Shown here one piece after another: positions 30,052 through 50,548 of a DNA stretch of 64,000 bases (within the stretch, counting starts at the first letter, position 1; every line of letters begins with the position of its first letter). The position numbers and the translations under genes were made by a program. This DNA is from Bacteroides sp. (GTDB lineage Bacteria > Bacteroidota > Bacteroidia > Bacteroidales > Muribaculaceae), in contig JAAVCX010000030.1 in assembly GCA_014802105.1 (NCBI GenBank), forward strand, positions 1 through 64,000, given 5' to 3'. The notes beneath the pieces are model-generated. The model did not search any database. It was not told where the DNA came from and saw nothing but the letters and a program-made list of their open reading frames with translations.

Positions 30052-31122
30052 ATGGATCAAAAGAAAATAAAAGTGGGTATCACCCACGGTGACATTAACG
30101 GCATCGGCTACGAGACCATCCTGAAGGCACTCGAAAACGCCGAACTGGCCGAGATATGCACCCCGGTGGTCTATGGATCGGCCAAAATAGCCGCCCATTA
30201 CCGCAAACTCATGGATCTGCCCGAGGTGAAATTCACCCGCATCGCCGGTGCCGACCAGGCCGATGGAGATCTCAACTATATAATTAATGTGGTAGGCGAG
30301 GATGTCATGCCCGAGCCGGGACAGGTATCAGCCACCTCGGGCCAGGCCGCTCTGGCCGCCCTCGAGCAGGCCGTGAGCGACCTCAAGCAAGGCCTCATCG
30401 ACGTGCTTGTCACCTGTCCTATCTCCAAAGATGCCATCCATAGCGACGAGTTCAACTTCCCCGGCCACACCGAGTTTCTCGAAGCCCGTCTGGGCGAGAG
30501 CGGCGACAAAGCCATGATGATCATGGCCGGCGAGCGCCTCAGGGTAGCGCTCGTGACCATTCACGAGCCGCTGGCCTCCGTCTCGGCCGACATCACCCGC
30601 GAGAAGATCGTCGACAGCATACAGCGTTTCGCCCACTCGCTCACAGCCGACTTCGGCATACACAAACCTCGCATCGCGGTGCTCTCGCTCAACCCCCATG
30701 CCGGCGACAACGGCGTGATAGGCAAGGAGGACTCCGAGATAGTGGCTCCCGCCATCGAGGAAGCTTATAAAAAACATGTCCTCGCCTTCGGCCCCTATCC
30801 CGCCGACGGATTTTTCGGCAGCGGAGCCTATTCAAAGTTTGACGGTGTCCTGGCAATGTATCATGACCAGGGGCTCATCCCCTTCAAACTCATCGAGGGG
30901 GAGAACGGCATCAACTACACCGCCGGACTCAAGAGTGTGCGCACCTCGCCCGACCACGGTACCGCCTTCGATATAGCCGGCCAGGGCAAAGCCGACCCGC
31001 AGTCATTGCGCCAGGCCATTTACACAGCCATAGACATATACCGCAACCGACGCCGCGAAGCCGAGGCTACCGCCAACCCCCTGCGTCGCCAGAACTTCGA
31101 CCGGGGCCGCGGCAACGACTGA
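30052..31122 (+). CDS. pdxA: 4-hydroxythreonine-4-phosphate dehydrogenase
   Basis: PdxA oxidises 4-phosphohydroxy-L-threonine to the precursor that PdxJ joins to deoxyxylulose phosphate, in pyridoxal phosphate synthesis. The 356 residues include VGITHGDINGIGYE, VTCPISKDAI, FPGHTEFLEA (metal His), and MYHDQGLIPFKL. The C-terminal region has RTSPDHGTAFDIAGQGKADP. It lies 53 bp behind the DUF2723 gene and 25 bp ahead of the nucleotidyltransferase, so it may be transcribed with the lipid locus. Confidence 0.96.
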   Translation: MDQKKIKVGITHGDINGIGYETILKALENAELAEICTPVVYGSAKIAAHYRKLMDLPEVKFTRIAGADQADGDLNYIINVVGEDVMPEPGQVSATSGQAALAALEQAVSDLKQGLIDVLVTCPISKDAIHSDEFNFPGHTEFLEARLGESGDKAMMIMAGERLRVALVTIHEPLASVSADITREKIVDSIQRFAHSLTADFGIHKPRIAVLSLNPHAGDNGVIGKEDSEIVAPAIEEAYKKHVLAFGPYPADGFFGSGAYSKFDGVLAMYHDQGLIPFKLIEGENGINYTAGLKSVRTSPDHGTAFDIAGQGKADPQSLRQAIYTAIDIYRNRRREAEATANPLRRQNFDRGRGND

Positions 31123-31147: not shown

Positions 31148-31864
31148 GTGTACTACGCCATCCTTGCCGCCGGACACGGCTCCCGACTCAAAGACGAAGG
31201 TCTCACCACCCCCAAGCCTTTCGTCAAGGCCGGCGACGCCTCACTGCTTGACAGGCTCGTCAGCCTGCTTTCGGCCCGTGACGACTCTACCGGCCTTGGC
31301 GTGATCCTCAACCCCGACTCCATGAGATGGGCCCGCGAGAACGGTGCCGATGCCTCCCTGTCAGGGATCGATCATCTCGTGAGCGTCTTCACCGAGGGGT
31401 CGTTGGAGTCGCTCAGAGCATTGGCTCCCTCCATACGTGAGAGTGGCGACAGCCACTTCTGCCTGACGACAGTCGACAGCGTGTGGGACGCGCGGGAGTT
31501 CTCCGCCTATCTGAAAGCCTTTGACGATCAGAAAGACGATATAGACGGCCTCATGGCGGTCACCTCATATATCGACGATGACTCTCCTCTCTGGGTAGCC
31601 GTCGACCGCGACTCTGAGATCACCGGTTTCCGCGACACACCTCCCGAGGATGCGCGCTATGTCTCGGGCGGAGTCTATCTGCTCCCCATGAGCGCTCTCG
31701 ATCTGCTCGACGATTGTCACGACAGGGGACTGAGACGCATGCGTGACTTCCAGCGCGCTCTGATAGCCAACGGTCTCAGACTCAAAGCCTATCCCTTCAG
31801 CGTCATCATTGATGTAGACCGGCCCCGCGATCTCGATGCCGCCCGGAGGCTGTTTCACTCCTGA
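31148..31864 (+). CDS. Sugar/polyol-phosphate nucleotidyltransferase (MobA/GlmU-like fold)
   Basis: A 238-residue NTP-transferase starting at GTG. The N terminus reads MYYAILAAGHGSRL and then TTPKPFVKAG, the nucleotide-binding signature of the family. LTTVDSVWD is the likely metal Asp region, and GGVYLLPMSAL the substrate side. Its own substrate cannot be read from sequence. Because it heads a run with two CDP-alcohol phosphotransferases and MIPS lies elsewhere in the window, an inositol-phosphate cytidylyltransferase (as in archaeal IPCT) is an attractive hypothesis. It is 40 bp ahead of the ATP-grasp gene. Confidence 0.75.
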   Translation: MYYAILAAGHGSRLKDEGLTTPKPFVKAGDASLLDRLVSLLSARDDSTGLGVILNPDSMRWARENGADASLSGIDHLVSVFTEGSLESLRALAPSIRESGDSHFCLTTVDSVWDAREFSAYLKAFDDQKDDIDGLMAVTSYIDDDSPLWVAVDRDSEITGFRDTPPEDARYVSGGVYLLPMSALDLLDDCHDRGLRRMRDFQRALIANGLRLKAYPFSVIIDVDRPRDLDAARRLFHS

Positions 31865-31903
31865 GCCCCTCTTTACCCCCTTTCCCTTACACTATTACCC
31901 TTC

Positions 31904-32770
31904 ATGGCCGATACAAAAATAGCAGCAATACTCCGCGCCGGAGCCTATTCACCCAACCACATAGGCAACGACGCAGCTATCATCAACCTCACCTGCGAGC
32001 AACTGCGCAAGCGGGGGTGTGCCGTAAAGACCTACTCGGAGGAACAGCTCATAGCAGGAGCCGTCACCGAGCCTAACGTCATACACATGTGTCGCGACCA
32101 GCGCTCGTTTCCCGTGCTCCAGGCTATGGAAGAGGAGGGAAGAGTAGTGATCAACTCGGGCTACGGAGTGGAAAACTGCACCCGCGAGCGACTGACACGC
32201 ATACTCCTGGGCTCGGGCTTCCCCTATCCCGAGAGCATCATAGTCAACACCAACCAGACCGTCACCGAACAGATGACCCGCCTTGGCATGTCGCAGGCCT
32301 GGATCAAGCGCGGCGACACATACGCCCAGCATAAAGAAGACGTCACCTACGTGCGCCATCCCGATGAGGCCCAGGAGGTGCTTCAGGAATACTTCCTGAG
32401 AGGCATCAAGCGAGCCGTAATCAACCGCCACCTCTCGGGCGACCAGGTGAAATTCTACGGAGTGCGCGGCACCGACTACTTCTATTGTTTCTACCACTTC
32501 GAGAAAAGCTTCTCCTATAAGGGGGACGACAAGGCACGCCACTTCGACAAAGATCTCATGAGATTTGACCTCGATAAGTTTCGCGACACCTGTGACCGTG
32601 CCGCCGACCTGCTCGACATACGCATCTATGGAGGCGACGCCATCATAGCCCCCGACGGCTCCTTCTCGATCATCGACTTCAACGACTGGCCCAGTTTCGC
32701 TCCCTGTCGAGTCGAGGCCTCGGCCGTCATAGCCCGTGCCATACTCGCTGAGATAAAGAAGCGCAAGTGA
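31904..32770 (+). CDS. ATP-grasp family enzyme (RimK/ITPK-like)
   Basis: A 288-residue ATP-grasp protein. The N-terminal Rossmann-like part (MADTKIAAILRAGAYSPNH) is followed by the ATP-binding subdomains (AWIKRGDTYAQHKEDV). The C-terminal metal loop YGGDAIIAPDGSFSIIDFND has the D-x-N pattern of RimK and of inositol 1,3,4-trisphosphate 5/6-kinases. It could be a carboxylate-amine ligase or an inositol-phosphate-type kinase. The neighbourhood of lipid head-group enzymes makes the second worth testing. It lies 40 bp behind the nucleotidyltransferase. Confidence 0.7.
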   Translation: MADTKIAAILRAGAYSPNHIGNDAAIINLTCEQLRKRGCAVKTYSEEQLIAGAVTEPNVIHMCRDQRSFPVLQAMEEEGRVVINSGYGVENCTRERLTRILLGSGFPYPESIIVNTNQTVTEQMTRLGMSQAWIKRGDTYAQHKEDVTYVRHPDEAQEVLQEYFLRGIKRAVINRHLSGDQVKFYGVRGTDYFYCFYHFEKSFSYKGDDKARHFDKDLMRFDLDKFRDTCDRAADLLDIRIYGGDAIIAPDGSFSIIDFNDWPSFAPCRVEASAVIARAILAEIKKRK

Positions 32771-32821
32771 CACAGGCTCCTCCTCACTTTGTGACCGCTA
32801 CGATAAAGACCTTACAGAAAA

Positions 32822-33367
32822 ATGTCATCAGAAAGCATCAACCGACTCAAGGACAGGTTTCTCCACGGCGAGGGACTCATCACCACTTTCCTGCGCTCCA
32901 TAGTCTCCTCCCAGGCAGCCTCATGGACCGACATGATAGTGCGCATCGTGCTCTTCTCCCTCGTGTTCACACATCTTGACCCCTTCTACCGCTCCAATCT
33001 CTCGGTGGCATGCGGAGCCATCGTGGGCGGTATCGTCAACTGCGTCATCAACTACCACTTCACCTTCCACGCCACCGGTCAGAATGTCAAGGCCGTCATC
33101 ATCAAATATGCCCTCGTCTGGACCGGCTCGATGCTCCTCAACATGTATGGCACCACCTTTGCCTCCCAGGCCCTGAGCCACTGGGACTTCCTCCATTCCT
33201 TAGGCTTTACGGCCGACGCTATCTTCACCGTCTCGACCCTAACAGTGTCACTGCTGGTGTCGTGGTTCTGGAACTTCACCCTCCAGCGTTACTTCGTGTA
33301 CCGGCCTACGCGCTTCGACAACACCGCCATAGCCATCGTCAACTTTTTCATTCCCAAGAAACATTAA
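32822..33367 (+). CDS. GtrA-like membrane protein
   Basis: A 181-residue protein with four predicted membrane segments (about 40-57, 62-80, 97-115, 135-157). The GtrA pattern is present in CGAIVGGIVNCVINYHFTF at helix 2 and WFWNFTLQRYFVY at helix 4. GtrA family members are thought to flip or present lipid-linked sugars. It may move a lipid head-group intermediate made by the adjacent enzymes (inference). It lies 7 bp ahead of the first CDP-alcohol phosphotransferase. Confidence 0.82.
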   Translation: MSSESINRLKDRFLHGEGLITTFLRSIVSSQAASWTDMIVRIVLFSLVFTHLDPFYRSNLSVACGAIVGGIVNCVINYHFTFHATGQNVKAVIIKYALVWTGSMLLNMYGTTFASQALSHWDFLHSLGFTADAIFTVSTLTVSLLVSWFWNFTLQRYFVYRPTRFDNTAIAIVNFFIPKKH

Positions 33368-33374
33368 CTGAGCC

Positions 33375-34061
33375 ATGAGTATAAAAAAACAAGCCAAAGC
33401 ACAACGCGACGCCCTGCAGCAGGGCATCTATTGTGTCATCAATCCTTTCGTGCGCCTGCTCATACGCATGGGCGTCACCCCCAACATGGTCACCACCATC
33501 GGTCTGCTCGGCAACATAGCCGCCGCGGCCCTGCTGGTCTGGGCAGGTTACACCGGGTCGCCCTACAACATGAACTACGACATGGTCACCTGGGCCGGCA
33601 CCATCATCATCCTGTTCTCGCTCTTCGACATGCTCGACGGCCAGGTAGCACGCCTGGGTGGCATGGTCTCGACCTTCGGAGCCATGTATGACTCTGTGCT
33701 CGACCGCTATTGCGAGCTGTTCACCCTCGGCGGCATCTCCTACTATCTGATCCAGACAGGCTACGTGGGCGGAGCGCTGATTACCTTCATAGCCCTCGTA
33801 GGCTCCATCATGGTGAGCTATGTGCGCGCCCGCGCCGAAGGCCTCGGACTGGAGTGTAAGATCGGTTTCATGCAGCGTCCCGAGCGAGTGGTGGTCACCG
33901 CTCTCGGAGCCCTGGCCACAGGCATAGTGGGATCGTGTGTATCAGCCTCTGATTTTGATGCCACCTGGATCCTCATCGGAGCCATGACCATCATCGCCGT
34001 GTTTGCCAACCTCACAGCCTTCGCCCGAGTGGAACACTCCCGCCGCCAGCTCATCAAGTAA
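33375..34061 (+). CDS. CDP-alcohol phosphatidyltransferase, copy 1
   Basis: A 228-residue membrane enzyme with about six helices. The full signature D-x2-DG-x2-AR-x8-G-x3-D-x3-D is present: Asp85, Asp88, Asp106 and Asp110 in FDMLDGQVARLGG and FGAMYDSVLD. The family joins a CDP-activated group to an alcohol. In gut Bacteroidetes the PI-phosphate synthase belongs here, so this is the best candidate in the window for making the inositol phospholipid. PgsA or another head group cannot be excluded from sequence alone; an AR/ER pair (VRARAEGLGL) follows the active site. Its stop is 31 bp ahead of the PAP2-like gene. Confidence 0.85.
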   Translation: MSIKKQAKAQRDALQQGIYCVINPFVRLLIRMGVTPNMVTTIGLLGNIAAAALLVWAGYTGSPYNMNYDMVTWAGTIIILFSLFDMLDGQVARLGGMVSTFGAMYDSVLDRYCELFTLGGISYYLIQTGYVGGALITFIALVGSIMVSYVRARAEGLGLECKIGFMQRPERVVVTALGALATGIVGSCVSASDFDATWILIGAMTIIAVFANLTAFARVEHSRRQLIK

Positions 34062-34092
34062 CACCCCTCAATCCCCCTCTCCGGCCTTCAGC

Positions 34093-35052
34093 ATGCTGAA
34101 ATCACGTTATCTGCCTACGGCCCGTGAGGCCGTGACCTTCACGGTGTGTCTCGCCCTATGGCTGGCTGTCACGGCCATATTCGTGGGGTTTCGTCCCGAA
34201 CACCTCTATATCGCCGTCTTTCTGGCCGTCATGCTCTTTGCCACCGGCTTCACCCGACGGCTGGTAGTGGCCCTGCTGCCTTTCATAGTCTTCGGCATCT
34301 CCTACGACTGGATGAACATCCTGCCCAACTATGAGGTCAATCCCGTCGACATCCGGGGCCTCTACTCCACCGAGTCGTCGCTCTTCGGCATCACCCTCCC
34401 CGCAGTTTCATCTGAAGTGGCCGGAGTCATCGTCACCCCCAACGAGTGGTGGGCGCTCCACACCTCCCCGGTGCTCGACTTCATGGCCGGATGTTTCTAC
34501 CTGTGCTGGGTGCCGGTTCCCATCCTCTTCGGTCTCTGGCTCTATCTCGACCGCCAGTATGAGGTCTATCTCCACTTCTCGCTGGTGTTTCTGCTGGTCA
34601 ACCTCCTGGGGTTCGCAGGCTACTATATCCATCCCGCCGCCCCGCCGTGGTATGTGGCTATGCACGGCTTTGACTTCATACCCGGCACTCACGGCGAGAC
34701 TGCCGGCCTCGGCCGATGGGACGCCATGATGGGGGTCGGTATCTTTGACGGTCTCTATTCGCGTAATTCCAACGTTTTCGCGGCAATGCCCTCGCTCCAT
34801 GCGGCCTATATGCTCATAGCGTTCATCTACTCGCTGAGGGCCCGGTGTAGCGTGTGGCTCAGGGTGCTCTTCGCTTTCATCTGTCTCGGCATCTGGTGGA
34901 CAGCCGTCTACACCTGCCACCACTATATCCTCGACGTGGCCGCCGGTATCGGCGTCACCCTTCTGGGCTGGGCCATTTTTGAAGCAGGCCTCATGAGACT
35001 CACCGCGTTCCGACACTTCATCGACAAATACAAAGCCTATATCTCGGCGTGA
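34093..35052 (+). CDS. PAP2/Aur1-like phosphotransferase (inositol phosphoceramide synthase-like)
   Basis: A 319-residue protein with six or more membrane segments and the PAP2_3/Aur1 pattern. YYIHPAAPPWYV precedes the catalytic AMPSLHAAYM and CHHYILDVAAG. In yeast Aur1, and in the Bacteroides inositol lipid locus, such enzymes move phosphoinositol from PI to (dihydro)ceramide. Transfer of another head group or simple lipid phosphatase activity is possible. The ATG at 34093 is chosen since longer frames run into the previous gene and add polar sequence before the first helix. Its stop overlaps the next start by 4 bp. Confidence 0.8.
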   Translation: MLKSRYLPTAREAVTFTVCLALWLAVTAIFVGFRPEHLYIAVFLAVMLFATGFTRRLVVALLPFIVFGISYDWMNILPNYEVNPVDIRGLYSTESSLFGITLPAVSSEVAGVIVTPNEWWALHTSPVLDFMAGCFYLCWVPVPILFGLWLYLDRQYEVYLHFSLVFLLVNLLGFAGYYIHPAAPPWYVAMHGFDFIPGTHGETAGLGRWDAMMGVGIFDGLYSRNSNVFAAMPSLHAAYMLIAFIYSLRARCSVWLRVLFAFICLGIWWTAVYTCHHYILDVAAGIGVTLLGWAIFEAGLMRLTAFRHFIDKYKAYISA

Positions 35053-35987
35053 ACTCCCGCGAAGACTATCTGCGCTCGCTCAAATCGGGCGACACCGAGG
35101 AGGGGATAGACCTGCTCTTCTACCGGCCCATCGGGTATATGTGGGCCCGACTGGCTTCACGTCTTGGCATCACGCCCAACAATATCACCATAGCCTCGAT
35201 CTTTCTGGGAGTCGGGGCCGGAGTGTGCTTCGGCTTCAACGATCTGTGGGTCAACGTTGCGGGTATGTTATTGCTCATCTGGGCCAACTCCTTTGACAGC
35301 GCCGACGGCCAGTTGGCACGCCTCACTCACCAGTATTCACGCCTCGGGCGCATACTCGACGGAGTGAGCGGCGACCTGTGGTTTGCCTCGATCTATATAG
35401 CTATCGTCATCCGCGAGAACAGCACCATCCCCCTCTTTCACGATCACCCCTGGGAGCTCTGGGTCTTAGCCGTGGTCGCCGGTTTTTTCCACGCCAAGCA
35501 AGCCTCCACGGCCGACTGCTACCGCCAGTTTCATCTCTATTTTCTCAAGGGGAGCGAAGGAAGCGAGCTCGACAGCTCCGAGAGTCTCAGCCGACAGCTC
35601 AGGGAGTCGGGAGTGACCTGGCGCAATGGCTTCTTCCGCCGCCTCTGCATGAGCGTCTACATCGCCTACACCCGATCGCAGGAGCGGCTGACCCCCCGGA
35701 TGCAGGCTCTGCGCCAAGCCCTGGCCGAGCGCTGGCCCGACGGCAAAATACCCGCCGGTTTCAGAGCCGACTTCCGCCGCCGCTCGCTGCCACTGATGAA
35801 ATATACCAATATCCTCACCTTCAACTGGCGCTCTATCGGTCTGTTCATCACCCTCTTCATCGGTCAGCCCTGGCTATACTTCGTCTATGAGCTCACCCTG
35901 CTCAATCTCGTGTGGGTCTATATGATACGGCGTCACGAACGCATCTGCCGCCTGATGATAAATGAAATCCACAGCTACCGGCAATGA
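35049..35987 (+). CDS. CDP-alcohol phosphatidyltransferase-like protein, copy 2, altered motif
   Basis: A 312-residue membrane protein starting at GTG inside the previous stop. The signature region reads FDSADGQLARL and GRILDGVSGD: Asp83, Asp86 and Asp104 are in place. The fourth position (108), where the family has the presumed catalytic Asp, is Gly, with Asp109 next to it. A hydrophilic stretch (about 165-250) splits the membrane helices and makes it longer than usual. It may use another acceptor or have a shifted active site. It is coupled by a 4-bp overlap on both sides (PAP2-like before, HAD after). Confidence 0.8.
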   Translation: MNSREDYLRSLKSGDTEEGIDLLFYRPIGYMWARLASRLGITPNNITIASIFLGVGAGVCFGFNDLWVNVAGMLLLIWANSFDSADGQLARLTHQYSRLGRILDGVSGDLWFASIYIAIVIRENSTIPLFHDHPWELWVLAVVAGFFHAKQASTADCYRQFHLYFLKGSEGSELDSSESLSRQLRESGVTWRNGFFRRLCMSVYIAYTRSQERLTPRMQALRQALAERWPDGKIPAGFRADFRRRSLPLMKYTNILTFNWRSIGLFITLFIGQPWLYFVYELTLLNLVWVYMIRRHERICRLMINEIHSYRQ

Positions 35988-36688
35988 ACAAGCGCGTCAG
36001 ATGCATACTCTTTGACTACGGAGGCACCCTCGATGCTCCCGGCGAGCATTGGAGCCATCTGATCAGCCGCGCATGGACAGCCGCCGGCGCCGACATTCCT
36101 CACGAAGAGTTCCGCCGGATTTACGTCCTGGCTGAAAGAGCGTTGGCCACTGCGGGAGCCGTGGCCGCCGACGACAACTTCCTCTCACTCATGCGCAAGA
36201 AAATCGCGCTTGAGAATACATTTCTCTCCACCCCCTTTCCGCCCGACATCTGCGAGCATGTAGCCGCCGACTGCTACCATATTGCGAAGCGCAACATTCA
36301 GGAAGTTAAACCCATCCTCGAGCACATTGCCGCCGAAGTTCCCGTAGGGATAGTGTCCAACTTCTATGGCAACCTACGCGCAGTGCTCGCCGACATGGAC
36401 ATCCTCAACATCTTCTCCGCCGTGACCGACAGCGGCGAGGCCGGCATGCGTAAACCCGACCGGCGCATCTTCACCGAAGCCCTCTGCCGGATAGATCCAC
36501 GTCTCACACCCTCCGAGGCCCTCATGGTAGGCGACAGCATCGACAAAGACATCATTCCCGCCCATAGCCTCGGCTTCAAGACCGCCCTATTGCCCGGCAT
36601 CCCCTGGGATCCCGCATCACCTCAGCCCCGGCTCCCGGCCGAGACTATACAGATCAGCTCGATAGCCGAAATCCTCCGGTATCTTTAA
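35984..36688 (+). CDS. HAD-superfamily hydrolase
   Basis: A 234-residue cytoplasmic protein. Motif I is LFDYGGTLD: Asp11 is the nucleophile, and the usual second Asp (general acid) is Gly13. Motif II is GIVSNFYGNL, the Lys is in MRKPDRRIF, and motif IV is MVGDSIDKDI. The cap is helical. The altered motif I is shared by other HADs, and does not itself rule out phosphatase activity. Being the last gene in the lipid run, it could remove phosphate from an inositol phosphate or a lipid head group, which is speculative. Confidence 0.8.
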   Translation: MNKRVRCILFDYGGTLDAPGEHWSHLISRAWTAAGADIPHEEFRRIYVLAERALATAGAVAADDNFLSLMRKKIALENTFLSTPFPPDICEHVAADCYHIAKRNIQEVKPILEHIAAEVPVGIVSNFYGNLRAVLADMDILNIFSAVTDSGEAGMRKPDRRIFTEALCRIDPRLTPSEALMVGDSIDKDIIPAHSLGFKTALLPGIPWDPASPQPRLPAETIQISSIAEILRYL

Positions 36689-36815: not shown

Positions 36816-39230
36816 ATGAAACTCAGATCATTTCTGCTCTCACTCCTGTGCATGACATCCCTCCTGGCCTCGGCCCTGACCGATCAGGAGGTCATCGGAT
36901 ATATCAAACAGCAGATGGCTGCCGGTAAGTCCGATCAGCAGATCGGTAAGGAACTCATGGCCAAAGGTGTCACTCCCGAGCAGGCCAAGCGCATCAAGGC
37001 CCAGCTTGAAGCTGAGGAAGCGTCTGAGAAAAAAATAACCAGCTCAAATGTCCAGGCCTTCGAGCGCGAGCGCCAACACTCGTCGGCCGAAGATATCTCG
37101 ACCGATTCATTCAACGACATCAAGCGCGAGGTCGACGAGGGGGTTGACGACCGTGTCTCCTCACGCCAGATCTACGGCCACCAGGTGTTCAACTCCCAGG
37201 CACTCACCTTTGAGCCCGGCGACAACATCGCCACCCCCAAGAATTATGCCCTGGGCCCCGGCGACGAGGTGGTCATCGACATCTGGGGCGCCAGCGAGGA
37301 TCATCTGAGACAGACCATATCTCCCGAGGGGAGCATCATGATCTCCCAACTGGGCCCGGTCTACCTCAACGGCATGACCATCGCCGAGGCCAACCGTCAC
37401 ATCAAGAACCTCTTCGCCAATAAATATTCCGGAGTCGACGACTCCCAGACCGACGTGCAGCTCACTCTGGGACAGGTGCGCACCATCCAGGTAGAGATCG
37501 TCGGCGAGGCCGCCACTCCCGGCACCTACCGCATGAGCCCGTTCTCGACAGTGTTTCACGCTCTCTACCGCGCCGGTGGCATCAGTGACATCGGCTCGCT
37601 GCGTAACATCCAGGTGATACGCAACGGCAAGAAGATAGCCGGAGTAGACATCTACGACTACCTGTTCAACCGCAAGGCCTCGGGCAATATACGCCTCCAG
37701 GAGGGCGACATGATCCTCGTGCCCACCTACGAGTCGCTGGTCGACATTACGGGTAATGTCAAGCGCCCGATGTATTATGAGATCAAGCCCGACGAGACCC
37801 TCAGCCGAGTCATCGAATATGCCGGAGGCTTCACGGGCGACGCCTACGAGGAGATGGTGAGACTCTCGCGCCAGAACGGCACCGAAAATCAGCTCTTCAA
37901 CATCGAGCGTGGCGAGTTTGACACCTACCGTCTCAAGGACGGCGACATGATCTCGGTCGGCACTATCCTCGACCGCTACTCCAACCGAGTGGAGGTCAAG
38001 GGTTCGGTCTATCGTCCGGGACTCTACGCCATCAGTTCCGACCTGGCCACTGTCGGCGACCTCATACGCAAAGCCGACGGCCTCACCGACGATGCCTATA
38101 TCAGCCGAGCCCTCCTCTATCGCGAGGGGCCCAACCTTGAGCTCGAAGTTCAGGCCATCGACCTCAACGCCATCTTCAACAAACAGATCCCCGACATAGC
38201 CCTGCGCCGCAATGATGTGCTCGTCATTTCGGGCATCCACGAGATCGAGGAGCGCGGACAACTCACTATCACAGGCCAGGTAGCCCGTCCGGGCTCCTAC
38301 CCCTTTGCCGTCAACACCACCCTCGAAGACCTGATCCTCCAGGCCGGAGGTCTGCTCGAGGGAGCCTCCACCGCCCGTGTCGACGTGGCCCGACGCATCT
38401 CCGACCCATCGACCACCACCCCTACTCAGCAACTCTCTGACATCTTCTCGCTGTCGATCGAGAACGGTCTGGCTGTAGGCGATGCCAAAGGCTTTATCCT
38501 CAAGCCCTACGACCTCGTGACAGTGCGTCGCTCGCCCGGCTACTCCCCCCAGGAGGAAGTTGCCGTCAACGGCGAAGTGCTCTTTACCGGAAATTACGTG
38601 ATCGAGAAGCGCAACGAGCGTATCTCTGACATCGTGCGCCGTGCCGGAGGCACAATCCCCGGAGCATATATCAAGGGAGCTCACCTCAGCCGTAAGCTCT
38701 CCGAGAGCGAGATGCTGGCACGCCGTGAAGTGATACGTCTGGCCATGGCCAACTCTGCCTCTGAAATGTCTGACTCCATCTCGCTCAACAAGATCGAGAT
38801 CGCGCCTACCTACAATGTCGGTATCGACCTTGAGAAAGCACTCGCCAACCCCGGCTCCCACTACGACGTGGTGGTGCAGCCCGGCGATGAGCTCTATATC
38901 CCTCAGGAGCAGAGCGTAGTGAAGATCTCGGGCGAGGTGATGTTCCCCAACGCCGTGGTCTACGAGCCGGGCAAAAATCTCAAATATTACATTGGCCAGG
39001 CCGGCGGTTACGGCCAGTCAGCCCGCAAGAACAAGGCCTTTGTGGTCTATCTCAACGGTAAAGTGGCCGAGGCCAAGCGCAACACTGTGATCGAGCCCGG
39101 TTGCCAGATCATCGTTCCCGCCAAGAGCAAGACCTCGGGCACCGACTGGAGCAAGATCCTCTCGATAGCCACCAGCTTCTCGTCGGTAGCGGCCCTCGGC
39201 GCGACAATCACCAATATATTCAAGAAATGA
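36816..39230 (+). CDS. Polysaccharide export protein, Wza-like with SLBB domains
   Basis: An 804-residue exported protein (signal peptide to about 20, LLASA). A helical region follows (about 22-110, VTPEQAKRIKAQLEAEE). Next is a polysaccharide-export domain (about 130-225, YALGPGDEVVIDIWGASED). Five SLBB-like modules can be seen: VDITGNVKRPMYYEI, VEVKGSVYRPGLYAI, LTITGQVARPGSYPF, VAVNGEVLFTGNYVI and VKISGEVMFPNAVVY. A hydrophobic tail follows (IATSFSSVAALGATITNIF). It would form the outer-membrane/periplasmic channel for capsule or exopolysaccharide. It is about twice the size of E. coli Wza owing to the extra SLBBs. A Wzz-like partner follows 21 bp later. Confidence 0.93.
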   Translation: MKLRSFLLSLLCMTSLLASALTDQEVIGYIKQQMAAGKSDQQIGKELMAKGVTPEQAKRIKAQLEAEEASEKKITSSNVQAFERERQHSSAEDISTDSFNDIKREVDEGVDDRVSSRQIYGHQVFNSQALTFEPGDNIATPKNYALGPGDEVVIDIWGASEDHLRQTISPEGSIMISQLGPVYLNGMTIAEANRHIKNLFANKYSGVDDSQTDVQLTLGQVRTIQVEIVGEAATPGTYRMSPFSTVFHALYRAGGISDIGSLRNIQVIRNGKKIAGVDIYDYLFNRKASGNIRLQEGDMILVPTYESLVDITGNVKRPMYYEIKPDETLSRVIEYAGGFTGDAYEEMVRLSRQNGTENQLFNIERGEFDTYRLKDGDMISVGTILDRYSNRVEVKGSVYRPGLYAISSDLATVGDLIRKADGLTDDAYISRALLYREGPNLELEVQAIDLNAIFNKQIPDIALRRNDVLVISGIHEIEERGQLTITGQVARPGSYPFAVNTTLEDLILQAGGLLEGASTARVDVARRISDPSTTTPTQQLSDIFSLSIENGLAVGDAKGFILKPYDLVTVRRSPGYSPQEEVAVNGEVLFTGNYVIEKRNERISDIVRRAGGTIPGAYIKGAHLSRKLSESEMLARREVIRLAMANSASEMSDSISLNKIEIAPTYNVGIDLEKALANPGSHYDVVVQPGDELYIPQEQSVVKISGEVMFPNAVVYEPGKNLKYYIGQAGGYGQSARKNKAFVVYLNGKVAEAKRNTVIEPGCQIIVPAKSKTSGTDWSKILSIATSFSSVAALGATITNIFKK

Positions 39231-39251
39231 TCCTAACCCCATCATAACATC

Positions 39252-40400
39252 ATGCACGACGAATATAAAAATCCCGATACCGTCTCCGCGACCTCTGACG
39301 AAGAAGCCGAGATCGATCTCCTCGAGCTCGCCTCACGCCTGTGGGACAACCGACGTAAAATCATGCGCTGGTGTGGCATCGGTGCAGTGATAGGTCTGAT
39401 CATAGCTTTCAGCATACCCAAAGAATATCTCGCCACCGTGAAACTGGCTCCCGAGATCAAAGACGGCAAGTCGGCGGGAAGCCTGGGTGCTCTCGCCTCG
39501 ATGGCAGGCCTATCAGCCGGCTCGTCATCCTCTGACGCCCTCAATCCCGACCTCTACCCCGAGGTGGTCAACTCGGTACCTTTCATCACCAGCCTCTTTG
39601 ACGTCAGAGTGCCGCTGGCCGATGACGACTCCGTCACGATGCCGGTCATCCAATACCTACAGACTGAGGTCTCGTCACCCTGGTGGAACGTCATTCTCGG
39701 ATTGCCCGGAAAATTAATCGGCCTGCTAAAAGGTTCCGATGAGCAGTCGGCCGACCACACTCTCGACAATTTCCGGCTCACACCCCAGGAGCTGGGGCTT
39801 GTCGAAGCTCTCAGAGGCCGCATCTCCACAACCATCGACTCAAAAAGCTCGCTTGTCAGCATCAATGTGACCATGCAGGATCCACTGGTGGCCGCCGTGC
39901 TCGCCGACACCGTGATGGCACGTCTTCAGGAATTTGTCATCGACTATCGCACAACCAAGGCACGCCAGGATCTCAAATATATCGAGACCCTCAACGAAGA
40001 GGCCAAGGCTACCTATTACAAGGCTCAGCAGAACTACGCCGCCTATCTCGACCGCAACCAGAACCTCTCGCTCTTCTCGGCCCAGACCACCCGCGACCGA
40101 CTGCAGAATGAGGCCCAGCTCGCCTTCAACCTCTACAACCAGACCGCCCAACAGGTGCAGACCGCCCAGGCAAAGGTGCAGGAAAACACCCCTGTCTTCG
40201 CCGTAGTCACCCCGGCCACAGTGCCCGTAAAAGCAGCTAAGCCACGCAAAGCCATAATCCTCGTCGGCTTTATCTTCTTGGGCTTTGTGCTGTGCTCGGC
40301 ATGGATACTTATGGGCGAGCCCCTCATGGAGAAGTTCCGCAAGCCAGCCGTAAAGGAGAACTCTTCCGCCCACGCCTCCGACGACACTCCGGCCGCTTGA
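39252..40400 (+). CDS. Wzz-like polysaccharide co-polymerase
   Basis: A 382-residue inner-membrane protein. An N-terminal cytoplasmic stretch (EIDLLELASRLWDNRRKIM) leads into TM1 (about 41-58). A large periplasmic loop with coiled coil follows (about 60-330, ARQDLKYIETLNEEAKATYY). TM2 (about 334-352) lies after PVKAAKPRKAIILVG, the proline-rich signature of chain-length regulators. No tyrosine kinase domain is attached. It should set chain length and bridge to the Wza-like channel encoded just upstream. Confidence 0.9.
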   Translation: MHDEYKNPDTVSATSDEEAEIDLLELASRLWDNRRKIMRWCGIGAVIGLIIAFSIPKEYLATVKLAPEIKDGKSAGSLGALASMAGLSAGSSSSDALNPDLYPEVVNSVPFITSLFDVRVPLADDDSVTMPVIQYLQTEVSSPWWNVILGLPGKLIGLLKGSDEQSADHTLDNFRLTPQELGLVEALRGRISTTIDSKSSLVSINVTMQDPLVAAVLADTVMARLQEFVIDYRTTKARQDLKYIETLNEEAKATYYKAQQNYAAYLDRNQNLSLFSAQTTRDRLQNEAQLAFNLYNQTAQQVQTAQAKVQENTPVFAVVTPATVPVKAAKPRKAIILVGFIFLGFVLCSAWILMGEPLMEKFRKPAVKENSSAHASDDTPAA

Positions 40401-40414
40401 CTCCACGACTGAAA

Positions 40415-41119
40415 ATGTATCGTAAACTTCTGTTGATCATCATCCTCGCGACCCTGGCCCGGATCTCTCCGGCCCAGAGCCGCGAGGCCTCTATTCTCGA
40501 GTCTCTGATCTCGGCCGCCGACACTCTCGCGGCCCCGGCAGAAGCCTCCTCAGGGGCAGAGATTTCTCAAAATCCTTTCGCCTCGCTGATCAGCCACCTC
40601 AAGCACGACACCGTCTCTCACGTCGCTCCGTCCAAAATATCCACCTTATCCCTGACATTCATCACCCGGACGTTTCTCACTGCCGACTATTATTCCACAG
40701 GCACCGCCTCGGGAGCCGAGGCCGGCGATCCGGCACTGTTCATGACCTACCTGCGTCGCTGTGGCCCCCTCACGAGTCCTTACGGCTGGCGCGAAAGCTC
40801 AGGCAGACCTCATCGGGGAGTAGATGTCGCGATGGCTGTCGGCGACACTGTCAGAGCCGCCCTCTCGGGCACAGTCGAGTGTATCGACTGCCAGCCCCGA
40901 GGCTACGGCCACTACGTGACACTTGTCCACGAAGGGGGTCTCGAGACCCGATACGCCCATCTGTCACGGACGCTGGTCACGCCCGGACAATACGTCATGG
41001 CAGGGGAGCCCATAGCTCTGAGCGGAAACAGCGGCAACTCCACAGGCCCGCATCTCCACTTCGAGACGCGCCTCATGAAAATCCCCTTTGACCCCCTCGG
41101 CGGCCTCGCAATCCCATAG
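40415..41119 (+). CDS. M23 family (LytM) metallopeptidase
   Basis: A 234-residue exported protein (signal peptide MYRKLLLIIILATLARISPA). A low-complexity Ala/Ser region (about 35-85) leads to an M23 domain (about 125-234). Zinc ligands are visible in RPHRGVDVAM (H-x3-D) and GPHLHFETR (HxH). GNSGNSTGPH is also typical. It would cleave peptidoglycan cross-bridges, or act as an activator if the fold is non-catalytic; both zinc motifs are intact, so activity is likely. The ATG at 40415 yields the signal peptide, whereas longer frames overlap the wzz-like gene. It is 14 bp behind it, so probably in the same operon. Confidence 0.9.
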   Translation: MYRKLLLIIILATLARISPAQSREASILESLISAADTLAAPAEASSGAEISQNPFASLISHLKHDTVSHVAPSKISTLSLTFITRTFLTADYYSTGTASGAEAGDPALFMTYLRRCGPLTSPYGWRESSGRPHRGVDVAMAVGDTVRAALSGTVECIDCQPRGYGHYVTLVHEGGLETRYAHLSRTLVTPGQYVMAGEPIALSGNSGNSTGPHLHFETRLMKIPFDPLGGLAIP

Positions 41120-49082: not shown

Positions 49083-49204
49083 ACCTCGAAATATAGGTCG
49101 AATTGTGCAGACTCCTCACGTACTATACCGCGACAGCGGCTTCCCCCTATATACCGATACACAGAAATAATAGAAAAACTAACCCCACAATTCCCCAATC
49201 AACA

Positions 49205-50548
49205 ATGAGTAATTCTACCGTTAAACCCGCCAGCGGCAAGCTCGGCGTACTCGTAGTAGGACTCGGCGCCGTCACCTCTACTTTCATGACCGGCGTCCTC
49301 ATGGCCCGCAAAGGCCTCACCAAGCCTGTAGGCGCGATGACCCAGTATGACAAAATCCGCGTAGGCAAAGGTGCTGACAAGAAATATCTCAAATATGAGG
49401 ACATCGTCCCCATGGCCAAGCTCGACGACATCGTCTTCGGCGCATGGGACGTATATCCCGCCAACGCATACCAGAGCGCTGTCTATGCCGAAGTTCTCGA
49501 GGCCAAGGACATCGAGCCCGTCAAGGATGAGCTCGAGAAGATCGTGCCCATGAAGGCCGCCTTCGACAAGAACTATGCCAAGCGTCTCAACGGCGACAAC
49601 GTCATGACCGACAAGACCCGCTGGGAGATGGTGGAGCAGCTCCGCGAAGACATCCGCAACTTCAAGAAGGAGACCGGTGTAGAGCGCGTAGTAGTGCTCT
49701 GGGCCGCTTCGACCGAGGTTTATGTACCCGTTGACGAGAAGATCCACGGCACCCTCGCCGAGCTCGAGGCTGCCATGAAGGCCGACGACAAGGAACACAT
49801 CGCCCCCTCGATGTGCTATGCCTACGCAGCCCTCTCGGAAGGCGCTCCCTTCATCATGGGTGCCCCCAACACCACCGTCGACATCCCCGCCATGTGGGAG
49901 CTTGCCGAGAAGACCGGCATGCCCATCGCCGGCAAGGACTTCAAGACCGGCCAGACCCTCGTGAAGAGCGGTTTCGCCCCCATCATCGGCACCCGTTGCC
50001 TCGGCCTCAACGGCTGGTTCTCGACCAACATCCTCGGCAACCGCGACGGCCTCGTGCTCGATGAGCCCGCCAACTTCCGCACCAAGGAGGTATCCAAGCT
50101 CTCTACTCTCGAGTCGATCCTCGTGCCCGAGGAGCAGCCCGACCTCTACGGCGCCAACTGCGGCGGCGCTGAGGAAGGCGGCCACCAGGGCTACTACCAC
50201 AAGGTACGTATCAACTATTATCCCCCCCGCAACGACTCCAAAGAGGGCTGGGACAACATCGACATCTTCGGCTGGATGGGCTATCCCATGCAGATCAAGA
50301 TCAACTTCCTCTGCCGCGACTCTATCCTCGCCGCTCCCCTCTGCCTCGACCTCGTGCTGCTGAGCGACCTCGCCGCTCGCGCAGGCCGTCACGGCATCCA
50401 GCGCTTCCTCAGCTTCTTCCTCAAGAGCCCCATGCACGACTACACCAAGAACGAAGTGCCCGTCAACCACCTCTTCAAGCAGTATGTAATGCTCAAGAAC
50501 GCCATCCGCGAGATGGGCGGCTACGAGGCTGACGAGGAGATCGACTGA
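49205..50548 (+). CDS. myo-Inositol-1-phosphate synthase
   Basis: A 447-residue MIPS (inositol-3-phosphate synthase), converting glucose 6-phosphate to inositol phosphate with NAD. Family signatures: Rossmann loop VLVVGLGAVTSTFMTG near the N terminus, FGAWDVYPANAY, VVLWAASTEVY, MGAPNTTVDIP, and GKDFKTGQTLVKSG with the catalytic Lys. In Bacteroides the matching gene sits in an inositol lipid cluster; here it stands 12.5 kb away from the phosphotransferase locus, beside psd-pssA. The ATG at 49205 is used; a longer frame from 49103 adds a low-quality leader sequence. Confidence 0.94.
   Translation: MSNSTVKPASGKLGVLVVGLGAVTSTFMTGVLMARKGLTKPVGAMTQYDKIRVGKGADKKYLKYEDIVPMAKLDDIVFGAWDVYPANAYQSAVYAEVLEAKDIEPVKDELEKIVPMKAAFDKNYAKRLNGDNVMTDKTRWEMVEQLREDIRNFKKETGVERVVVLWAASTEVYVPVDEKIHGTLAELEAAMKADDKEHIAPSMCYAYAALSEGAPFIMGAPNTTVDIPAMWELAEKTGMPIAGKDFKTGQTLVKSGFAPIIGTRCLGLNGWFSTNILGNRDGLVLDEPANFRTKEVSKLSTLESILVPEEQPDLYGANCGGAEEGGHQGYYHKVRINYYPPRNDSKEGWDNIDIFGWMGYPMQIKINFLCRDSILAAPLCLDLVLLSDLAARAGRHGIQRFLSFFLKSPMHDYTKNEVPVNHLFKQYVMLKNAIREMGGYEADEEID

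Follow-up and report, generated by a model that had tools for sequence, protein, structure and literature searches.

Why should one operon carry two CDP-alcohol phosphotransferases? The question is raised by seven genes of a Bacteroides sp. (family Muribaculaceae), found in a stretch of 64,000 nucleotides that we call the window (contig JAAVCX010000030.1, positions 1 to 64,000). Seven intact reading frames lie on the + strand at 31148-36688. They encode a nucleotidyltransferase (NTP, 31148..31864), an ATP-grasp protein (GRASP, 31904..32770), a GtrA-like membrane protein (32822..33367), a first phosphotransferase (CAP1, 33375..34061), a PAP2/Aur1-type enzyme (PAP2, 34093..35052), a second phosphotransferase (CAP2, 35049..35987) and a HAD-type phosphatase-like protein (HAD, 35984..36688). 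The locus interleaves two sets of genes for inositol lipids. Three of the seven, GtrA, CAP1 and PAP2, are the counterparts of BT_1524-1523-1522 of B. thetaiotaomicron, here the classical set. NTP, GRASP, CAP2 and HAD are the unproven "alternative" cluster type proposed for B. vulgatus and Prevotella. We argue that this is probably a dual-route inositol-lipid operon, with both arms at work.

Two gene sets in one operon

The grouping of these genes in other genomes separates the two sets. The surroundings of NTP were fetched from 29 other genomes of the order, of which 247 were sampled. NTP, GRASP, CAP2 and HAD occur together at 27 of the 29 loci, fusions counted; the full four are lacking at L038 and at L040, which is cut by a contig end. 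The fetched stretch includes an inositol-phosphate synthase at 22 of the 29, and BLAST finds CAP1, PAP2 and GtrA at none of them. Bacteroides ihuae (L196) has inositol-phosphate synthase, NTP, GRASP, CAP2, a membrane protein of family U2 and HAD. Loci found through CAP1 outside the window's family, most clearly L174 and L175, hold inositol-phosphate synthase, the phosphatase PgpA, GtrA, CAP1 and PAP2. PAP2 is followed by a U2-family membrane protein in L175, which matches the published order from BT_1526 to BT_1521. GtrA homologues (35-39% identical) sit in the same place in four classical-type loci, L174-L177.

The two sets meet in the window's family. Among 198 genomes of this family searched for CAP1 and CAP2, at least 160 have CAP2 and 61 have CAP1. 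The CAP1-PAP2 block stands between GRASP and CAP2 in the window and in at least 27 other family genomes, a lower bound; these loci were chosen for fetching by the closeness of CAP1 and CAP2. GtrA is also inside the block in nearly all of these 27 composite loci; 19 of them also carry NTP and 23 carry HAD, once as a fusion to CAP2. The fullest arrangement is NTP-GRASP-[PgpA-GtrA-CAP1-PAP2]-(acyltransferase)-CAP2-HAD-synthase. In the window and the three loci most closely related to it (L136-L138), PgpA lies outside the block. The composite layout recurs across several genera, and the order of the seven genes is more than chance because it recurs across many genomes. The acyltransferase is GlsA/OlsF-like (family U1) and lies between PAP2 and CAP2 in 11 of the 27, for example at L150:7614-8462; a relative of it also adjoins a CAP2 homologue in another genome (G105, L349).

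The genes of the window are packed. The gaps are 39 bases from NTP to GRASP, 51 from GRASP to GtrA and 7 from GtrA to CAP1, and PAP2-CAP2 and CAP2-HAD each overlap by 4. The start of PAP2 is likely the ATG at 34093, which leaves 31 bases after CAP1, and the longest frame begins at a TTG at 34003 and overlaps CAP1. The original prediction of a tightly packed seven-gene locus therefore holds for frames, order and most of the spacing, the CAP1-PAP2 gap being unsure. It also drew a single CDP-inositol route that left the ATP-grasp enzyme, GtrA and one phosphotransferase as spare parts, and this picture does not survive. The locus holds both routes, and GRASP routinely belongs to the alternative set.

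According to the available part of Heaver et al. 2022 (PMC9246714), almost every Bacteroides or Prevotella species with inositol-phosphate synthase has one of the two clusters nearby, and no mention of a combined cluster was found in that part. No composite cluster appeared among the literature matches listed, a coverage from which subscription papers are largely missing. The matches listed for inositol lipids of Muribaculaceae or Duncaniella likewise held nothing on the seven-gene locus. The recurrence of the composite in the window's family shows that both clusters can serve one cell, and it offers clean genetic tests of both routes in one background.

The classical arm

The identities of the first arm rest on curated models and solved relatives. 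PAP2 (PAP2_3, 2e-22) is a predicted phosphoinositol dihydroceramide (PI-DHC) synthase of the BT_1522/Aur1 type. It scores 484.2 bits, above the cut-off of 480, with NCBIfam model NF052609, the BT_1522 equivalog. For CAP1 (CDP-OH_P_transf, 8e-15) the best model is NF052561, PIPSynBT1523 (4.7e-84), at 281.7 bits, and it counts against the assignment that this is below the curated cut-off of 350. The best solved relative of CAP1 is RsPIPS (5d92, 2.8e-20), the phosphatidylinositol-phosphate (PIP) synthase of R. salmoninarum. The original prediction had asked for such a comparison with PIP synthases. RsPIPS R153 and R191 are held to bind inositol phosphate in the available part of Clarke et al. 2015 (PMC4634129). 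They align with R171 and R218 of CAP1, positions counted by hand from the alignment, and CAP1 Arg151 stands at the position of the Mt K135-type lysine. CAP1 also has the full eight-residue signature of CDP-alcohol phosphotransferases. By sequence CAP1 is PIP-synthase-like. The GtrA protein is BT_1524-like by position, its Pfam match (PF04138, 2.7e-5) scoring 24.8 bits, just under the cut-off of 26.1.

The remaining parts of this arm are encoded elsewhere. The myo-inositol-1-phosphate synthase is in the window at about 49118..50548 on the + strand (PF07994 3e-102, PF01658 4e-29; start codon unsure), 12 kb downstream of the operon, and PF01658 matches once in the genome. This gene, which the original prediction did not report, is followed by phosphatidylserine decarboxylase and a CDP-diacylglycerol-serine phosphatidyltransferase. 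Each of 18 genomes with CAP1 has a single PgpA, and none of 6 without CAP1 has any (G161 being counted among the six). One could suppose that the PgpA phosphatase is wholly absent here. We reject this, since the window's genome has one PgpA (PF04608, 5e-32, at C6), away from the locus and 31-57% identical to the copies inside clusters. Serine palmitoyltransferase is also encoded elsewhere in the genome (NF047600, 651.2 bits, cut-off 640).

Inositol-phosphate synthase would supply L-inositol-1-phosphate, which CAP1 would couple to CDP-diacylglycerol to give PIP. The PgpA-type phosphatase would convert PIP to phosphatidylinositol (PI), and the PAP2/Aur1 enzyme would move phosphoinositol onto dihydroceramide. 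With the CAP1 and PAP2 matches, PgpA and serine palmitoyltransferase all present, our prediction is that PI and PI-DHC are made in this organism by the characterised route. The assembly is 2.08 Mb and 77% complete, and this incompleteness is a point against the reading. Inositol lipid synthesis, the core of the original prediction, is well supported by the synthase in the window, the PI-DHC synthase above its cut-off and the serine palmitoyltransferase. The CDP-inositol route stands in part: it is plausible for NTP with CAP2, but CAP1 is PIP-synthase-like instead.

The alternative set and its enzymes

The genes of the second set belong together. NTP is found in 30 of the 247 genomes, GRASP in 31 and both in 29 (Fisher p about 3e-34, kinship ignored). 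CAP1 is found in 14, and 5 of those have GRASP. A further set of named loci, the best 80 of at least 564 by identity to the GRASP of Bacteroides ihuae, gives counts that apply to close relatives. In their fetched flanks CAP2 is present in 80/80 and is always the next recognised gene after GRASP; NTP is present in 69, HAD in 66 and inositol-phosphate synthase in 46. Several of these genes also form single frames: NTP-GRASP-CAP2 (L033, 820 residues), NTP-GRASP (L036, L037, L054), NTP-CAP2 (L144, L145) and CAP2-HAD (L157). That GRASP is a passenger gene is rejected by the co-occurrence in 29 of the 30 NTP genomes and by the fusions. Co-occurrence and fusions support one pathway for the set. The two NTP-CAP2 frames (L144:13854-15527 and L145:3521-5197) are from the window's genus, lie about 8 kb from a classical block and resemble the IPCT-DIPPS architecture of thermophiles.

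The absence of NTP from some CAP2 genomes might be thought to refute this, and the difficulty is mostly resolved. There are 22 CAP2 genomes without a BLAST-recognised NTP beside GRASP, and 20 of these have a full-length NTP match. It is at the CAP2 locus, divergent or fused, in four (G256, G435, G347, G396) and elsewhere in 16. Three of the unlinked copies (G331, G358, G249) are of a divergent type for which a different substrate is possible. No full NTP is present in the six genomes that have GRASP and CAP1 without CAP2, which show only short matches to other nucleotidyltransferases, and CAP1 is rejected as the partner of NTP on this ground. Since 20/22 and 0/6 are the respective counts, NTP and CAP2 travel together even when unlinked, as expected of a donor-making enzyme and its transferase. 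In seven named genomes NTP and GRASP lie apart, and in all seven HAD is next to NTP. It must be noted that four genomes do not fit: G295 and G446 have CAP2 without a full NTP, G039 has NTP without GRASP, and G137 has a GRASP fragment without NTP. Viral contigs were also searched for relatives of NTP and none were found.

CAP2 (PF01066, 1.6e-11) is the most unusual member of the set. The class I signature is D1xxD2GxxAR...GxxxD3xxxD4, and CAP2 has seven of its eight residues. D4 is Gly108 in all 33 sequences of alignment A3 (32 of 60 CAP2 frames plus the window), followed by Asp in 29 and Asn in 4. A3 excludes three D4-keeping CAP2-like frames upstream of NTP in L032, L034 and L039. In the BLAST-defined sets that include those three loci, Gly is at D4 in 149 of the 152 frames with a readable motif. 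The fourth aspartate, called "absolutely conserved", is thus replaced in CAP2. F112, I115 and Y116 line up with D4-keeping relatives and need no gap, on which ground we reject an insertion at this point in favour of a substitution. A tree of 59 chosen sequences puts the Gly form on one side of a single branch (support 97/84, 98% of bootstraps), with one Ser row inside the Gly side and a program warning of long branches among distant rows. By profile CAP2 is nearest to AF2299 (2.2e-11). Choline/ethanolamine phosphotransferases come second (2.5e-5, 3.5e-4), and PIP synthases score less well (1.7e-3 or above). The nearest D4-keeping rows (L353, L354) have no NTP, GRASP or HAD in the fetched stretch, and the Gly or Ser rows L349, L351, L355 and L193 have no NTP or GRASP at the locus.

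Two side observations concern copies of CAP2. The D4-keeping gene of L032, L034 and L039 is a second CAP2-like gene a few kb upstream of NTP. The paralogue with Ser at D4 (L351, genome G796) shares a contig with NTP, GRASP, CAP2, U2 and HAD (L350).

What does CAP2 make? Model NF052609 matches 13 of 13 CAP1 genomes (11 above the cut-off) and none of 27 alternative-only genomes. All 27 being without an Aur1-like synthase, CAP2 itself may make PI-ceramide. B. vulgatus makes PI-DHC and is reported to have no homologues of BT_1522/23/25, by the available part of PMC9246714, so some other enzyme must make PI-DHC there. CAP2 may well be the natural candidate for this step in alternative-only genomes. 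The analogy is to the CDP-ethanolamine:ceramide enzymes.

The substrate of NTP (PF00483, NTP_transferase, 1e-9) is argued from its company. The original prediction called for a fold comparison with the inositol-phosphate cytidylyltransferase IPCT. T. maritima IPCT (4jd0) is indeed matched (TM 0.77/0.75), only at rank 6 and among sugar and other nucleotidyltransferases. The best profile hit is a thymidylyltransferase (3.5e-11), and IPCT 4jd0 follows at 1.9e-9 over nearly the whole length. Several results make an inositol substrate less certain. The nearest named relatives, themselves weak, are sugar-1-phosphate enzymes with IPCT close behind; the NCBIfam inositol cytidylyltransferase model does not list NTP; and neither profile nor fold places NTP specifically close to IPCT. 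Residues R13, K23 and D110 are invariant in all 31 sequences of alignment A2 (30 of 50 NTP frames plus the window) and correspond to the catalytic Arg, Lys and Asp of TmIPCT named in the available part of PMC12275187. The same source describes CpgD, a phosphoglycerate enzyme of Caulobacter whose top fold hit is T. maritima IPCT. CpgD has all three residues as well, and they cannot by themselves identify the substrate of NTP. The inositol assignment is proposed on gene context, and a CDP-inositol-type route is the best reading for NTP, plausible only together with CAP2.

More distant loci bear on the donor. L343-L347 (genus g252, from another class of the phylum) and L360 have a D4-bearing relative of CAP2, inositol-phosphate synthase and a nucleotidyltransferase. 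The latter is IPCT-like in L343 (archaeal IPCT 6.3e-24, NF041135 132.7 bits) and in L360 (NF041135 121.2 bits). Loci of this type support CDP-inositol as the donor of the whole CAP2 group. Their gene content suggests a joint arrival of GRASP, HAD and another type of NTP, along with the loss of D4.

GRASP has no Pfam match. Its AlphaFold model (mean pLDDT 85, residues 199-217 below 50) matches ATP-grasp enzymes, which bears out the label it was first given. The question is whether it is a kinase or a ligase. The first hit of its profile against the PDB is the inositol trisphosphate 5/6-kinase ITPK 1z2n, at 1.4e-6 with alignment A1 (40 sequences: 39 of 70 GRASP frames plus the window) and at 6.7e-9 with A8, a hand-picked diverse set of 27. 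AtITPK4 follows at 3.7e-7 (single stretch 7e-7) and the peptide ligase PsnB at 7.7e-8 (single stretch 2e-6), then human-type ITPK1 entries and glutamate ligases at about 1e-5 to 1e-4. A kinase is opposed by two results: the 6.7e-9 sums stretches of which none is significant alone (best 0.06), and the Foldseek top 50 are ligases (D-Ala-D-Ala ligases, PsnB, RimK, ArgX). The metal motif is D245...D258-x-N260-D-[WF]-P-S. A D-x-N motif is typical of ITPK, and E-x-N of most ligases. The sequence favours a kinase; the fold does not.

One can imagine that only the classical route makes an inositol lipid, and that NTP, GRASP, CAP2 and HAD add some other head group, such as glycerate in the manner of CpgD or an amino acid joined by an ATP-grasp ligase. 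The IPCT fold of a phosphoglycerate enzyme (PMC12275187, available part) and the ligases that fill the Foldseek list of GRASP both agree with this. Two arms in one operon would also be odd if they made the same lipid. However, inositol-phosphate synthase accompanies the alternative set at 22 of the 29 loci of the order and 46 of the best 80 named loci, and B. vulgatus makes PI-DHC with the classical homologues reported missing (PMC9246714, available part). We regard a different head group as unlikely, and return to an inositol lipid as the product of both arms.

GRASP is coupled to HAD. K135 and K183 are invariant across 152 GRASP frames, and K135, K183, D245, D258 and N260 are all intact in 142 of them, including the window's. 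The ten altered metal sites are E245 (L167, L170, L171, L172), S258 (L155, L156, L165) and D260 (L147, L158, L190), from genera g3 (three), g194, g179 (two), g183 and g177 (three). Three different changes spread over five genera were probably several events. In the 74 fetched loci of the order and family sets, HAD is at the GRASP locus in 0 of 10 with an altered site and 58 of 64 with an intact one (Fisher p 1e-8, kinship ignored). This absence holds for the GRASP locus only, genomes not having been searched for HAD elsewhere. Two of the six intact-site loci without HAD are cut by contig ends (L040, L192). The other four (L144, L145, L168, L169) are real exceptions and speak against the coupling. 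Also awkward are L167-L172, where GRASP stands beside GtrA-CAP1-PAP2: the locus holds neither NTP nor CAP2 nor HAD, and no NTP or CAP2 was found in the genome. The altered metal site in four of these six softens the awkwardness and does not remove it. Such a coupling would follow if HAD had to take off a phosphate put on by GRASP. It moves a kinase from barely the better bet to one that we lean towards.

GRASP goes with the alternative set as a rule and is not peculiar to the window's locus, and this is new. The published pathway in the available part of PMC9246714 does not include it, and the term ATP-grasp is absent from the main text there. Among the matches listed, which leave subscription papers largely outside, none dealt with ATP-grasp enzymes in the making of inositol lipids by bacteria.

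Could the composite be a genomic relic, with one arm decaying and inactive in this lineage? In the window and its closest relatives PgpA no longer stands in the block, CAP2 has no fourth catalytic Asp, and some related genera carry a GRASP with an altered metal site. But the seven frames are intact and tightly spaced, the GRASP site of the window is intact, the D4 change is common to the whole CAP2 clade including alternative-only genomes, and the layout recurs in several genera. A relic is very improbable, and two working arms is the reading that we keep.

HAD (PF00702, Hydrolase, 1.2e-12) presents a puzzle like that of CAP2. Its motif I is DYGGT in the window and DxGxT, not DxDxT, in all 129 family members examined (alignment A4 holds 29 of 52 HAD frames plus the window), so the second Asp (Asp+2) is absent. 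Active DxG members exist among HAD proteins, and this one may still cleave phosphomonoesters. Activity is nevertheless not assured for a CAP2 without D4 or a HAD without Asp+2, and this too weighs on the other side.

It has been suggested in PMC9246714 (available part) that, in the alternative set, PI-DHC is synthesised by HAD; CAP2 would then make PI first. The missing Asp+2 could favour transfer over hydrolysis, and the CAP2-HAD frame of L157 has a counterpart reported in P. veroralis (PMC9246714, available part). The idea is weakened by the composite loci, which already hold a PI-DHC synthase beside HAD. Moreover, G251 and G315 keep NTP, GRASP and CAP2 with no HAD at the locus, though their GRASP site is altered. 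The aspartyl-phosphate mechanism of the HAD fold handles phosphomonoesters and is not known to handle phosphodiesters. A synthase role for HAD is improbable, and we prefer that HAD is a phosphatase and CAP2 the transferase.

A proposed mechanism and the known systems

For the second arm we infer every catalytic step, including the donor, the acceptor and the kinase and phosphatase roles. NTP would activate inositol phosphate with CTP, and CAP2 would pass phosphoinositol from this CDP donor on to a lipid alcohol, with dihydroceramide or diacylglycerol as the probable acceptor. GRASP would act on soluble inositol phosphate before or with NTP, probably as a kinase, and HAD would remove phosphate around the CAP2 step. 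A more specific scenario is a phosphate relay. GRASP would put a second phosphate on the product of inositol-phosphate synthase, NTP would turn this bisphosphate into a CDP donor, the D4-less CAP2 would transfer this directly to (dihydro)ceramide or diacylglycerol, and HAD would strip the extra phosphate. The relay would explain why there is a kinase and a phosphatase in the alternative arm and not in the simple loci of phosphotransferase, synthase and IPCT. The GRASP site is altered only where HAD is missing at the locus, and this lifts the relay from unlikely to a tentative suggestion that we still rate at well under even.

The scenarios differ in their stereochemistry. If the relay operates, the CDP-inositol route would end in the D-1-linked lipid that the PIP route also makes. 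If it does not, a CDP-inositol derived from L-inositol-1-phosphate would give the mirror-image head group, and some cells would have inositol lipids of two different stereochemistries. Were GRASP an inositol-phosphate kinase, an ITPK-like enzyme would have a place in bacterial lipid synthesis. At the very least, the published picture of the unproven route is incomplete: the route includes an ATP-grasp enzyme, coupled to HAD, and its phosphotransferase is without a conserved aspartate. GRASP with HAD, and the D4-less CAP2, are two leads that make the alternative route testable.

The flanks of the operon can be described briefly. PdxA (window 30052-31122) is immediately 5' of NTP, as it is in 46 of the best 80 named loci. 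After a gap of 127 bases the operon is followed, at 36816-41119, by an SLBB polysaccharide export protein, a 382-residue protein and an M23 peptidase. The 382-residue protein looks Wzz-like.

We compare the locus with four known systems. The nearest to the first arm is BT_1522-1526 of B. thetaiotaomicron (PMC9246714, available part), which has CAP1, PAP2 and GtrA in corresponding order, and whose inositol-phosphate synthase, PgpA and serine palmitoyltransferase are all present in the window's genome. It differs in that here PgpA and inositol-phosphate synthase are outside the cluster, and four genes of the alternative set flank the classical block. The nearest to the second arm is BVU_RS13095-13115 of B. 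vulgatus and its Prevotella counterparts. By the published description (PMC9246714, available part) it has NTP, a CDP-alcohol phosphotransferase and HAD in the same order. However, the BT-type genes are inserted here, and the published pathway has no ATP-grasp gene.

The IPCT/DIPPS enzymes of thermophiles (4jd0, 2xme, 4mnd) share the fold of NTP, the catalytic Arg, Lys and Asp and, in L144 and L145, the joining of NTP and phosphotransferase in one frame. They differ in that the sequence of NTP is not specifically similar to theirs and that GRASP is added here. A CDP-inositol route was reportedly described by Jorge in 2015 (cited in PMC10191378) in Rhodothermus marinus, and is said to pair a cytidylyltransferase with a CDP-alcohol phosphotransferase that has a lipid acceptor, as we propose for NTP and CAP2. 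The three-gene loci L343-L347 and L360 are possibly a lipid route of this R. marinus type. Unlike the window, they show no GRASP or HAD, and their phosphotransferase keeps D4.

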